This document shows, one piece after another, positions 12,543-43,987 of a stretch of DNA of 43,987 nucleotides. Source of the stretch: Chloroflexota bacterium (lineage in GTDB: Bacteria > Chloroflexota > Dehalococcoidia > Lucifugimonadales > UBA3495). The position numbers and the translations under genes are program-made. Position 1 is the first letter of the stretch. Each line of letters opens with the position of its first letter. The stretch lies in the NCBI GenBank assembly GCA_028875655.1, contig JAPPCX010000093.1, positions 1 to 43,987 of the forward strand, read 5' to 3'. The notes under the pieces were generated by a model. It searched no databases, was not told where the DNA came from, and saw only the letters and a list, made by a program, of their open reading frames with translations.

Positions 12543-12659
12543 CTACTCTCCGGCCTGAATAACGACGCGGCCACCCCTTTTTACCTGGATGCTCAGGTCG
12601 CGGCCGTCAAGCAGTAACATACCCACGAGTGGGGCGCTGCCCGTCGCGTCAGCTTTGAT
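12543..12659 (-). pseudogene. C-terminal stub of a retropepsin-like aspartic protease
   Basis: On the minus strand, in a frame different from the gene that precedes it, about 38 codons read [14 protein letters not shown], then LLLDGRDLSIQV, then KRGGRVVIQAGE and a stop at 12543-12545. This is the usual C-terminal end of small clan AA aspartic proteases (PL(V/I)GM, LLDGxxLxIxV, GGxVxI). The D-T-G half is gone. The stub immediately follows, and slightly overlaps, the 94-residue partner gene. It is therefore the decayed second gene of the same module that is nearly complete at 43.3-43.9 kb. Confidence 0.7.
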
Positions 12660-12933
12660 ATGCCGGGGTTGGCCGTTGCAAGGAACTGGCTCCGAAACTG
12701 CGTAGCGCCCGGTATCCGACGCGCTCGCAGAGGATATTGACCGCGCTTGTGTGCATGGTGCGCAGGCGGTCCACCGCGGCGATCTCGCTGTCGGCGACTA
12801 CCCAATTCCCGCTGTCCACGTCAATGACGACGTATTCGCCAAAGTGGTCAGATTCTACTTGAGGCAGGATGTCCCTGCGGTAAATTTCCCGACCCAGGCG
12901 GGCTGTCTCTGCACTTGGGCGGCGGGGGGGCAT
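12649..12933 (-). CDS. Partner protein of retropepsin module (paralogue of 43344-43631)
   Basis: With the ATG at 12933 (GGAG about 8 bases upstream) the product is 94 residues, matching the 95-residue paralogue at 43.34 kb; ATGs at 12981 and 12993 are alternatives. Shared features are (L/I)G-x3-Y near residue 15, then an acidic helix, H-x-[16 protein letters not shown] (VVIDVKSGDY in the paralogue), R-L-R and (R/L)VGY-x-A-x2-S-(F/I)G near the end. The function is unknown. The paralogue lies directly before a protease gene, and here the same position holds a protease stub. The last residues ([11 protein letters not shown]) may be a by-product of the deletion that removed most of the protease. 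Confidence 0.6.
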
Positions 12934-13116
12934 GGCGGCTTCTCCGCTGCAACCGGGCTTTGTCGTTTTCGCGTCTCTCATACATTCCCCCATTCAGCAG
13001 CGCGTCCGATGTTGATGATTCTACCATTTCGCGGGCAGTTCCATAGAAAGAAATGCGGCGGCTCGGGTTACTGGCGCAGGGTGTTTGGAGGAAATATACG
13101 GTATCATGGGGCCGTT

Positions 13117-29574: not shown

Positions 29575-29992
29575 TGCCCGTTCGTCCCTCGTATGCCATG
29601 TTGAAGTGTCTCAAAAAGGTGCGGCCGATGAGCGCGTAGTAGGGTTGCCCGCTGGCGGCCAGACTTACGCTGTCGAAAGGTCCATCAATGGTGAAATCCA
29701 GTTCCGGGATGTAGATCTGCGCCAGATATACGGTTGTCTCGAAAAGACCGCCGGCCCCGGCAATGCGGTTATGTGCCAGTACCGGCAGGTTCAATGAGTT
29801 AGCCAGATCCGCGTCTATCGCGCTTTCCATGGCCCCCGTATCCACCAGCGCCCGCCACCGTTCCGGCGGCAATTGCGCCCGCTGTCCGGGACTTGGCTGA
29901 TAGTTGGGATCATAGCCGATCTGTACGTAAACGGTTGGGCCTAACTGGATCAATGCATAGGGGTTGTTATATCCGGAATCAGTCCTTGCCAT
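29552..29992 (-). CDS. Retropepsin-like (clan AA) aspartic protease, module C
   Basis: The product is 146 residues from the ATG at 29992. The catalytic motif is WRALVDTGAMESAID (Asp 51, D-T-G-A). The second conserved element, YYALIGRTFLRHFNMAYEGRTGSVII, has the (A/I)LIGR hydrophobic-Gly motif. A single D-T-G per chain implies a homodimer, as in retroviral proteases. There is no signal peptide, so it should be cytoplasmic. The gene overlaps the end of a small partner gene by 14 bp and is overlapped downstream by the DUF255 gene. The substrate is unknown; the tight coupling suggests the partner. Confidence 0.75.
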   Translation of the reverse strand: MARTDSGYNNPYALIQLGPTVYVQIGYDPNYQPSPGQRAQLPPERWRALVDTGAMESAIDADLANSLNLPVLAHNRIAGAGGLFETTVYLAQIYIPELDFTIDGPFDSVSLAASGQPYYALIGRTFLRHFNMAYEGRTGSVIISND

Positions 29993-36995: not shown

Positions 36996-37352
36996 GTGGG
37001 AACCGTTACTGTTCCGATCCAGATCGGAGACCTTCAAGGTAGCCGATTCGAGGAACTTGACATCATCGTGGACACCGGCTCGACGTACACCGCGGTGCCG
37101 CGCGCGATGCTGGAACGCCTCGGAGTTCCAATCCAACGTTCACTGCCGTCGGAGACTGCCGACGGCCGGATCATTCCGGTGGACGTGGGCGAAACCGTGG
37201 TCGTGCTTGAAGGACTGCAATTCCACACTCCGGTGATATTTGCCGAAGAGAACGAGCCGATTTTGCTCGGCGTGGTAACTCTCGAAGAGGCATCCCTCGC
37301 CGTTGACCCGGTGGCCGGCCGCCTCATACCTACGCATGTCCTGCGCTACTGA
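36996..37352 (+). CDS. Retropepsin-like aspartic protease, solo copy D
   Basis: The product is 118 residues. The GTG at 36996 has GGAGG nine bases upstream. The catalytic motif IIVDTGSTYTAVP places the Asp at residue 26, close to the N-terminus. The second element is PILLGVVTLEEASLAVDPVAGRL, the hydrophobic-hydrophobic-Gly motif that packs behind the active site in clan AA enzymes. The single D-T-G implies a homodimer, and there is no signal or membrane segment. It is behind a NIPSNAP gene and has no small partner gene. A 141-bp gap without a supported gene separates it from the mutase gene. Confidence 0.78.
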   Translation: MGTVTVPIQIGDLQGSRFEELDIIVDTGSTYTAVPRAMLERLGVPIQRSLPSETADGRIIPVDVGETVVVLEGLQFHTPVIFAEENEPILLGVVTLEEASLAVDPVAGRLIPTHVLRY

Positions 37353-40049: not shown

Positions 40050-40427
40050 ATGGGCATCACCCGCATCGACGTGAAAATCAGGAACCCGGCCGAACCTGAC
40101 CGGGTCTGGGAAGGCCGGTGCCTGGTGGATACTGGAGCAATCGACTGTCTCATACCCAGACAGCACCTGGAGGCAATCGGGCTCGCGCCGAAAGGAACTC
40201 GAACCTACGGCCTGGCCGATGGCAGTCCGGTTACGATGGACATTACCACCGCCGATATCGAGTTCATGGACGAAATAGTCGGCGGCACCATCGTATATGG
40301 AGCGGCCAACGCCGAACCCCTGCTGGGGGTTACGGCCATGGAATCGGCCGGCGTAGAGGTGGATCCCCACAACCAGACCCTGAACAAACTCCCCGAGGTT
40401 CGTCTCCGGGGATTCAGGTTTCGATGA
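40050..40427 (+). CDS. Retropepsin-like aspartic protease, solo copy E
   Basis: The product is 125 residues from the ATG at 40050. The catalytic motif CLVDTGAIDCLIP places the Asp at residue 27. The second element is EPLLGVTAMESAGVEVDPHNQTL. The plan (D-T-G near residue 27, then LLG and VDP) matches copy D at 37.0 kb, so the two are probable paralogues. There is no small partner gene before it, only a 66-bp gap after the binding-protein gene. The acyl-CoA dehydrogenase gene follows at 50 bp. Confidence 0.78.
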   Translation: MGITRIDVKIRNPAEPDRVWEGRCLVDTGAIDCLIPRQHLEAIGLAPKGTRTYGLADGSPVTMDITTADIEFMDEIVGGTIVYGAANAEPLLGVTAMESAGVEVDPHNQTLNKLPEVRLRGFRFR

Positions 40428-42274: not shown

Positions 42275-43279
42275 ATGCCCGCCCACGTAGTCTATGGGGA
42301 CAGCTTCCTGGTGGCGGTCGCTATCCGGCGTATTCTCCAGGATGCCGGCGCGTCGGACGTGATGGAATCCAACCATCACCGCATGGTTGCCGCGCAAACC
42401 CAGCCGGCCGAGGCGCTGGCTGCCTGCAACTCCCTCCCCTTTCTCGACGCGCTACGGCTGGTGGAAATTGAGGGTGTGCTGGCCACCGAGGAAAGCGCGG
42501 GCGGTCAGCGCGGCCGGGGAAGAGCCACGCGCCGGCAGACTGCGCCCCGCACGGGCTGGATGCAGGTTGTCGAAGCGATCCCTCAGATGCCCGACACCAC
42601 ATTGCTGATGCTGGTGGACGGTGATGTGACCGACGGCAATCCGCTGTTACGGGCCTTGGCCGAGCATTGCCAAGTCCACAAGCAGGCCGCGCCGACGGGG
42701 CAGGGCCTGAATCAATGGGTGAAGCGCAGCGTTGAGGACAAAGGGGGAAGCATCACGCCGCCGGCGATCCAGGCCATTACCGAGATGATCGGCAACGACC
42801 TGTGGACGCTGGACCGGGAGCTTGAAAAGCTGTCCCTGTACGCTACTGGCCGTGAAATCACCGAACCTGATGTCCGTGCCCTGGTTCCATACGCCCAGGA
42901 GGCCAACATCTTCGCGGCGGTGGACGCGATCATGGACGGCAGGCCCGGCGACGCGCTCAGGCTGTTGGCCCAACTGATGCAGGAAGGGCGCGAGCCGCTG
43001 TACATCATCGCCATGATCGAGCGGCAGTTGCGGTTAATCGCGCTGGCCCGTGATTTGACCGAGCGAGGCGTGGTGCAGCCGGAACTGGGCCGTCGGATGG
43101 GAGCCAACTCCGACTTTGTGGTGCGGAAGACCCTGGGGCAGGCGCGCCGGGTGTCTCTGCCCGAAATCTCGCTGAAGTACCAACGCGTGCTGGAGAGCGA
43201 CCTGGCAATCAAGCAGGGACGGCTTGATCCTGAGGTTTCTCTGGAGTTGCTGGTGGCTGACCTGGCGGGGGCCGCTTAG
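42275..43279 (+). CDS. holA: DNA polymerase III delta subunit (HolA)
   Basis: The delta subunit of the clamp loader opens the beta sliding clamp. The 334-residue protein has the HolA pattern: an N-terminal VVYGDSFLVAVAI (here without a functional Walker A, as expected), TLLMLVDGDV, the mid-region GGSITPPAIQAITEMIGNDLWTLDRELEKLSLYA and EANIFAAVDAIMDG. The C-terminal helical domain reads REPLYIIAMIERQLRLIALARDL and LESDLAIKQGRLDPEVSLELLV. An Arg/Gly-rich insertion (QRGRGRATRRQ) around residue 80 is unusual. The ATG at 42275 starts right after the tandem repeat tail. Confidence 0.88.
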   Translation: MPAHVVYGDSFLVAVAIRRILQDAGASDVMESNHHRMVAAQTQPAEALAACNSLPFLDALRLVEIEGVLATEESAGGQRGRGRATRRQTAPRTGWMQVVEAIPQMPDTTLLMLVDGDVTDGNPLLRALAEHCQVHKQAAPTGQGLNQWVKRSVEDKGGSITPPAIQAITEMIGNDLWTLDRELEKLSLYATGREITEPDVRALVPYAQEANIFAAVDAIMDGRPGDALRLLAQLMQEGREPLYIIAMIERQLRLIALARDLTERGVVQPELGRRMGANSDFVVRKTLGQARRVSLPEISLKYQRVLESDLAIKQGRLDPEVSLELLVADLAGAA

Positions 43280-43343: not shown

Positions 43344-43631
43344 ATGGAGTTCAAAGAAGGGGAAGCCGCCGCAATCGGGCAGGCTATGTATGAAAAAATC
43401 CGCGACGAGATGGAGGAGCATTACTGGGGACACATGGTAGTCATCGACGTGAAGAGCGGCGACTACGAAATCGGCGGCGCCGGCGATGACGACTGGACCG
43501 TCACCATGCGCCTGAGAGAACGCCGGCCGGATGCGTACACATGGGGCGAACTAGTTGGTTACCCGGCGACTTGCTCTATCGGCGGCGGCGTGTTGGAACC
43601 CCTGCCCAGAAGGTCCAAAAAGCGTGATTAG
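43344..43631 (+). CDS. Partner protein of retropepsin module B (paralogue of 12649-12933)
   Basis: The product is 95 residues. The ATG at 43344 has AGGAG nine bases upstream. Features shared with the 12.65-kb protein are IG-x3-Y near residue 14, an acidic helix (EKIRDEMEEHYWG), VVIDVKSGDYEIGG, an R-L-R element and LVGYPATCSIGGG near the end; the C-terminus is basic (RRSKKRD). No known domain is recognised. The stop overlaps the start of the following protease gene by 8 bp (GTG at 43624), so expression is coupled. A role as substrate, inhibitor or adaptor of the protease is plausible but not shown. Confidence 0.65.
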   Translation: MEFKEGEAAAIGQAMYEKIRDEMEEHYWGHMVVIDVKSGDYEIGGAGDDDWTVTMRLRERRPDAYTWGELVGYPATCSIGGGVLEPLPRRSKKRD

Positions 43632-43987
43632 CGGCGCCGTTTGGATGCTGGGTCAATCAGCATCCATGACAATCTGGGAACCACGCATTGAAGTCTCTGT
43701 CTCCGGCGTGAGCATGGACTTCCGCACTGTGGAAGCCGTTGTTGACACGGGATTCACGGGGGCATTGGCGCTTCCGAGTCAAATTATTGAAGATCTCGGC
43801 CTAGTCCTCCACGACGAGCGGCCCGTAAGGATGGCGAGCGGTATAAGAACAGTGCGCATCTACGGCGCAATAGTATCCTGGTTTGGCCAGCACCGGGCCG
43901 TGCCTGTCCATCAAGTTGAGGGCAACCCACTAAGAGCCTATCCTAAAAACTGTTGGAAACTTGCAGTGGTGCTGTGGGAAGGGAAGC
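43624..43987 (+). pseudogene. Retropepsin-like aspartic protease, probably interrupted by an IS (partial)
   Basis: The frame opens with GTG at 43624 (or ATGs at 43645 and 43666) and runs past the window end. The motif EAVVDTGFTGALALP has its Asp at about residue 41 from the GTG. It continues as expected (IIEDLGL, VRMASGIRTVRIYGA, RAVPVHQVEGNPL) up to the G-N-P-L that should be followed by (I/V)GMxLLxG, as in the stub at 12.54 kb. Instead the reading turns to RAYPKNCWKLAVVLWEGK at 43934, where a terminal repeat typical of IS5-type elements begins. The conserved C-terminal third is therefore missing. Confidence 0.7.
43934..43987. mobile_element. Left end of a probable IS5-family element (cut by the window edge)
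   Basis: GAGCCTATCCTAAAAACTG starts at 43934 and resembles the terminal repeats of many IS5-type elements. The four bases just before it, CTAA (43930-43933), fit the YTAR target site that such elements duplicate. The protease reading frame loses its conserved sequence exactly here. No transposase is visible in the remaining 54 bases. Confidence 0.5.

Follow-up and report, generated by a model that had tools for sequence, protein, structure and literature searches.

Type II toxin-antitoxin modules consist of two small overlapping genes, the toxicity of one product being neutralised by the other. Retropepsin-like proteases have been described in Pseudomonas as RloA and RimB, and the part of the published account considered here reports that loss of rloB/rloC rescues protease mutants (PMC12239564). 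The IS1031 subgroup of the IS5 family is characterised, in the portion of its description used here, by a TNA target and 3-bp duplications; the example ISLrh has 17-bp repeats and overlapping orfA and orfB (PMC12016507).

The window analysed here, 43,987 bp long, is the entire contig C105 of a Chloroflexota genome (G000; 3.45 Mb in 123 contigs) and stops 54 bp inside a multicopy insertion sequence (IS). A small gene, called the partner below, and the beginning of a clan AA aspartic protease gene lie at its right edge, downstream of a DNA polymerase III delta-like gene that we take to be holA (Table 1). The start codon of the protease, GTG at 43624, overlaps the partner stop codon at 43629-43631. 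The protease frame runs from this GTG to a leucine codon at 43930-43932 and enters GAGCCTATCCTAAAAACTG, the end of the IS, at 43934. The match of the truncated protease to TIGR03698 (clan_AA_DTGF) includes the DTGF motif and scores below the cut-off of 57.35 bits. The initial annotation had read this place as a protease gene running into an IS5-type end beside an intact partner gene, and on C105 both parts of that description hold.

Table 1. Features of the window that bear on the split protease gene and on the second copy of the partner
Feature	Position	Strand	Evidence
C-terminal protease remnant behind second partner	12543..12677	-	profile positions 80-121; DTG part absent
Second partner gene of the window	12649..12993	-	ORF intact; stop-free match to the partner profile at 12703-12909 (E 4.5e-18)
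DNA polymerase III delta-like gene, synteny marker on the upstream side	42275..43279	+	ORF; DNA match in all 14 genomes of the genus, G000 among them
Intact partner gene, 95 aa	43344..43631	+	87% amino acid identity (80/92) and dN/dS 0.083 to the G009 copy
Clan AA (DTGF) aspartic protease interrupted by the IS, N-terminal ~103 codons	43624..43933	+	TIGR03698 positions 3-78, 38 bits; family-profile positions 12-99
TAA target triplet, left copy	43931..43933	+	flank comparison; right copy on contig C43
First 54 bp of the IS, running off the contig	43934..43987	+	end common to 18 contig ends; transposase 5' side by comparison with left end of the G006:C15 element

The missing half of the gene was found at the right end of contig C43 (L131), where the IS end is followed by a second TAA and then by codons for IGNALLTNCLLSIDFREGGSVTIQPHW. 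A family profile built from 18 proteases of other genomes was searched against all 37 IS flanks in three frames (111 sequences). The C43 flank matched profile positions 100-124 (E 5.6e-06) and the C105 flank the positions given in Table 1 (E 5.6e-24); the two halves, searched separately, abut at positions 99|100. None of the other flank frames scored below E 1, the nearest being four rows at E 4.8 to 8.7. We infer the join between C105 and C43 from the gene halves and from synteny rather than from a spanning read.

These results agree with what the initial annotation had predicted beyond the window: an inverted terminal repeat, found as the opposite IS end, and codons for (I/V)GMxLLxG...GGxVxI, found on C43 past the IS end and the TAA. 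Together with the short target duplication, the repeats and the other half of the gene bear out its reading of a protease gene split by an IS5-type element. Its proposed target, CTAA under a YTAR rule with a second CTAA on the far side, has to be replaced. The C43 flank begins TAAT where a 4-bp copy would need CTAA, showing that the duplication is TAA (3 bp), and a 4-bp YTAR target is further contradicted by TTA, which adjoins ten of the 18 left ends and 11 of the 19 right ends.

The IS ends are repeated throughout the genome. A 19-mer of the GAGCCTATCCTAAAAACTG end has 18 exact copies in G000, all of them at contig ends, the contigs stopping 50-54 bp into the IS; the reversed control pattern has no matches. 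The opposite end, GAGCCTATCCTAATAACCC..., is imperfectly inverted and lies at 19 further contig ends. A looser end pattern gave 39 matches in G000, 37 of them exact and two bearing two mismatches; its reversed control gave 9. Sixteen of the first 18 bases agree between the two ends, in keeping with the short terminal repeats of IS1031. A MITE-like repeat with identical ends was considered and rejected, since the ends differ at two of these bases and diverge beyond them.

The target triplet is equally regular. TAA or TTA adjoins the element in all 37 flanks, TWA making up 0.66% of the trinucleotides of the window. There are eight TAA and ten TTA among the left flanks, and eight TAA and 11 TTA among the right flanks; the agreement of the two tallies indicates about 18-19 insertions, each with a 3-bp duplication. 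The base before the triplet is C in 13 of the 18 left flanks. The split protease has TAA on both sides, a 3-bp duplication of TNA form, which, judged from sequence, fits the IS1031 subgroup of the IS5 family.

The body of the IS and its transposase were not seen in the G000 assembly in searches with DUF4096 and PF01609, as expected of a collapsed repeat. DUF4096 gave one strong match, on C50, and one weak match, on C19 (E 0.70), and PF01609 gave four rows, on C50 and C56. The transposases of G000 are thus on contigs without these IS ends, plus one weak row. The IS5-type transposase on C50 was tried as the body of this element and is not supported, C50 having no end motif at up to two mismatches. 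Two relatives of the element are present in G006, a genome of the same genus. One, on C45, is about 917 bp long and has TTA on both sides. The other, on C15, is 1067 bp long and has TTA before and TAT after it on one strand, that is, no clear target duplication; it carries an IS5-type DUF4096 transposase match, with transposase-like sequence in two frames, the second interrupted by a stop. A plasmid search with the IS end gave no match. In G048, a genome of another genus, two left ends (L075, L076) and three right ends (L146, L147, L148) identical to those of this IS lie at contig ends with TAA or TTA beside every one, which would reflect either recent transfer or cross-binning.

Ten of the 13 congeneric genomes were compared at this site. 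C43 is collinear with nine of them beyond the polymerase gene, G010 being the exception. Only G009 has the module at this site. There it is in one piece and lacks the IS, the order on G009:C51 being polymerase gene, partner, protease (..GNPLVGNALLTNC..) and ABC-type gene, and C43 is collinear with this contig from base 4 of the C43 flank. This comparison bears on whether the IS end was wrongly attached during assembly, the protease being whole in the real genome. Assemblers do err at contig ends in repeats, and C105 stops 54 bp into one. Such an error is nevertheless very improbable, given that the other half follows the opposite IS end and an identical TAA, at abutting profile positions, that the flanking synteny agrees with G009, and that TWA adjoins the element in every flank.

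It is therefore regarded as close to certain that an IS1031-type element of the IS5 family transposed into the second gene of a two-gene unit, the protease, and inactivated it. The element entered the protease gene after about 103 codons and duplicated TAA, and the 3' part of the gene is now found on C43. Comparison with the homologous left end in G006 suggests that its transposase reads in the direction of the gene. The contig break would be explained by the presence of the element at about 18-19 places in the genome, its body having presumably collapsed in assembly. The truncated product keeps the DTG motif and lacks the conserved IG..LL...GG.V.I end; with this end lost, it is expected from the retropepsin fold to be inactive. 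The insertion leaves the partner intact.

Decay of the module is visible at the same site in related genomes. Nothing similar to the partner or to the N part of the protease was found there by blastn in the other nine compared genomes. G008 has a short stretch resembling the protease tail (L166; G008:C11, 1626-1639 of the reverse complement), which is fused, at a short imperfect repeat, to the sequence following the polymerase gene; in the window this repeat is likewise present past the polymerase gene. This stretch may be the scar of a lost module. In G009 the protease is damaged by a frameshift before the active site and by a change of DTG to DTE, and the partner is open. Between G000 and G009 the three protease pieces have identities of 61%, 61% and 82% and dN/dS values of 0.29, 0.32 and 0.07, the last at a dS of 2.0, near saturation; as neither protease is intact, these values may be raised by relaxed selection. 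The polymerase gene has 71% identity and a dN/dS of 0.17, and the partner the values given in Table 1. The G008 scar, the damage in G009 and the absence of similar sequence elsewhere all suit a reading in which decay affects the entire module here and the partner owes its intact state only to the recency of the hit. Nothing about function could then be read from the pattern. Decay of this kind predicts similar numbers of broken partners beside intact proteases across the genus.

In the 14 genomes of the genus, G000 included, there are 136 partner domains at 122 loci, with 2 to 20 domains per genome. No stop was found inside any of the 136 domains. Behind the 122 partner loci there are 99 full-span proteases with DTG and four full-span proteases without it. 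A protease is counted as full-span when a single frame free of internal stops covers 91 or more of the 125 profile positions, and some such copies (L241, L242) already end at position 105. Twelve proteases are visibly broken, among them the IS-split copy and the remnant at 12543-12677, and some of the stops and frameshifts in the other copies may be sequence errors, the genomes being mostly drafts. Six loci have no protease; in one of these the partner is partial, and in another it is a tandem copy preceding a complete pair. At one further locus the protease is cut by a contig end. Of 14 stop-bearing protease rows, eight end at the gene's own terminal stop and six contain an internal stop, and only the latter indicate breakage; once the eight are corrected for, a tally from match coordinates likewise arrives at 103 full-span proteases.

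In the reverse direction, the partner was found in 25 of 27 loci of relatives located through the protease. The protease survey listed 150 of 240 matches, and the 120 rows of the strongest type were used. The other 30 listed rows (E 3e-10 and weaker) were excluded as a DTGA/DTGS branch, an assignment based on three of them from G000; partnerless DTGA/DTGS proteases are another branch and stand outside the counts. Among the matches listed, proteases without a partner are a full-length copy (G012:C73), a divergent copy (G006:C9) and a C-terminal remnant (G014:C81), and a further partnerless piece is a protease part at the end of G010:C121. That end (L239) holds protease positions 73-123, the C part, and the start of G010:C112 (L229) positions 2-77, the N part; the two may belong to one more gene interrupted at a repeat. 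The window itself contains three more clan AA proteases, of the DTGA/DTGS type and with no partner upstream, at 37017-37319 (+), 40065-40382 (+) and 29579-29860 (-). Of 22 TIGR03698 rows in G000, 20 have E <= 1.3e-4.

The damage is thus one-sided over the 122 partner loci, and broken partners beside intact proteases, which decay of the whole module would produce in similar numbers, were not seen, a result confounded by gene order. A binomial test of the asymmetry (P about 0.001) is exploratory, since the events are non-independent and subject to the same confounder. Conservation points in the same direction. When the 99 intact pairs are compared by protease identity, the partner core is the better conserved of the two in 75 of 85 comparisons, which also speaks against decay of the whole module. 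The same holds for 226 of 232 comparisons selected on partner identity and for 76 of 84 between nearest neighbours, all of these comparisons being non-independent. The median dN/dS over 123 pairs is 0.141 for the partner and 0.232 for the protease, the pairs having been chosen by partner identity and hence biased. On this evidence, decay of the whole module with a recent hit is rather unlikely to account for the pattern.

Pairs of the same kind occur on cyanobacterial plasmids. Nine plasmid records contain the partner, and six were examined. In five of these the profile places a full-span protease directly behind the partner. The sixth, from Oscillatoria, has no protease profile match; by eye, a protease start can be followed that breaks off just before the place of the DTG motif. 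In the plasmid of Nostoc sp. MS1 (L301) the pair is situated between pglZ and pglX of a BREX-1 locus. One plasmid pair adjoins a ParD/RelE-ParE pair, and another lies near a RelE/ParE-family toxin gene and beside a DUF1156 gene.

In four of the cyanobacterial plasmid pairs the annotated genes overlap by 4 bp, and in the window the protease start overlaps the partner stop. Such overlap raises the question of polarity. If the upstream partner is translationally coupled to the protease, breaking the partner would silence both genes and lead to loss of the unit, while breaking the protease would spare the partner. Polarity would leave unexplained both the persistence of partners without a protease (L231, L232, L233, L236) and the stronger conservation of the partner core, and as an account of the one-sided damage it is rather unlikely. 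Gene order nevertheless has to be taken seriously as an alternative source of the asymmetry.

The initial annotation had argued that a disrupted protease beside an intact partner tells which gene is dispensable. A single case is insufficient for this argument; the genus-wide counts point the same way, with gene order confounding them. That the protease is repeatedly lost while the partner survives suggests that the former is dispensable or costly and the latter harmless or useful on its own. Tentatively, the partner and the clan AA protease may form a widespread, undescribed module of toxin-antitoxin-like or regulated-proteolysis type, with the protease as a costly effector and the partner as its keeper. 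Decaying copies would then lose the protease first, the IS insertion being one such event.

The partner of the window (43344..43631) matched no family of Pfam or NCBIfam at E <= 1. When 22 partner members were compared with Pfam, 15 families were matched, each by one member only, the best being HepII_C (E 3.2e-05); NCBIfam was searched with the window copy only. Against solved structures, the best match by sequence had an E of 0.057. The fold predicted by AlphaFold2 has a mean pLDDT of 84.4 and a pTM of 0.73. Foldseek gave no match to this model at E <= 0.001, and from the best VIA match (Z 4.1) no reading was drawn. PADLOC gave a weak 'protease' match for the protease (E 0.019) and none for the two partners, and the window partner had no match at E <= 0.01 in phage records. 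A search of mainly open-access literature found no description of the partner-protease pair or of the partner family, and no function of the partner.

The insertion itself is a routine IS event of known type. It provides a knock-out made by nature within a unit of two genes, and the partner in this copy matches no family of Pfam or NCBIfam. More worth pursuing is that, across the genus, the partner repeatedly survives where the protease does not, which raises the testable question of whether a retropepsin-like protease is harmful unless its partner is present.

The unit resembles type II toxin-antitoxin modules in having two small overlapping genes (43344-43631 and 43624 onwards), in being present in multiple copies per genome and on plasmids, and in having toxin-antitoxin or BREX genes as neighbours in some cyanobacteria; the survival of one gene alone may be a further likeness. 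Counted as for such modules, there are 12 broken and six absent proteases at 122 partner loci against no stop in 136 partner domains, and among the matches listed two proteases and one remnant are partnerless, gene order being a confounder. Unlike type II modules, the unit has a partner without a known antitoxin domain, and any role of its products as toxin and antitoxin is putative.

The protease shares the DTG motif and the profile match with the clan AA aspartic proteases of TIGR03698, and its second half completes the family profile; it differs in being split, the N part alone falling under the TIGR03698 cut-off. Compared with the IS1031 subgroup and ISLrh, as far as the portion of the source used describes them, the element has in common the 3-bp TNA target and inverted repeats of about 17 bp starting with GA (PMC12016507); a two-frame transposase may be a further shared trait, suggested by the G006:C15 relative. 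It differs from them in that its repeats agree at 16 of 18 bases, that all its targets are TWA, mostly preceded by C, and that the body of this copy is absent from the assembly. A further parallel for the protease is provided by RloA and RimB, bacterial proteases of clan AA with a DTG motif that are likewise encoded together with partners. In the part of that account considered here, the partners are an inactive transglutaminase membrane protein and an ATP-grasp protein (PMC12239564), whereas the partner of the present unit is a protein of about 95 amino acids.
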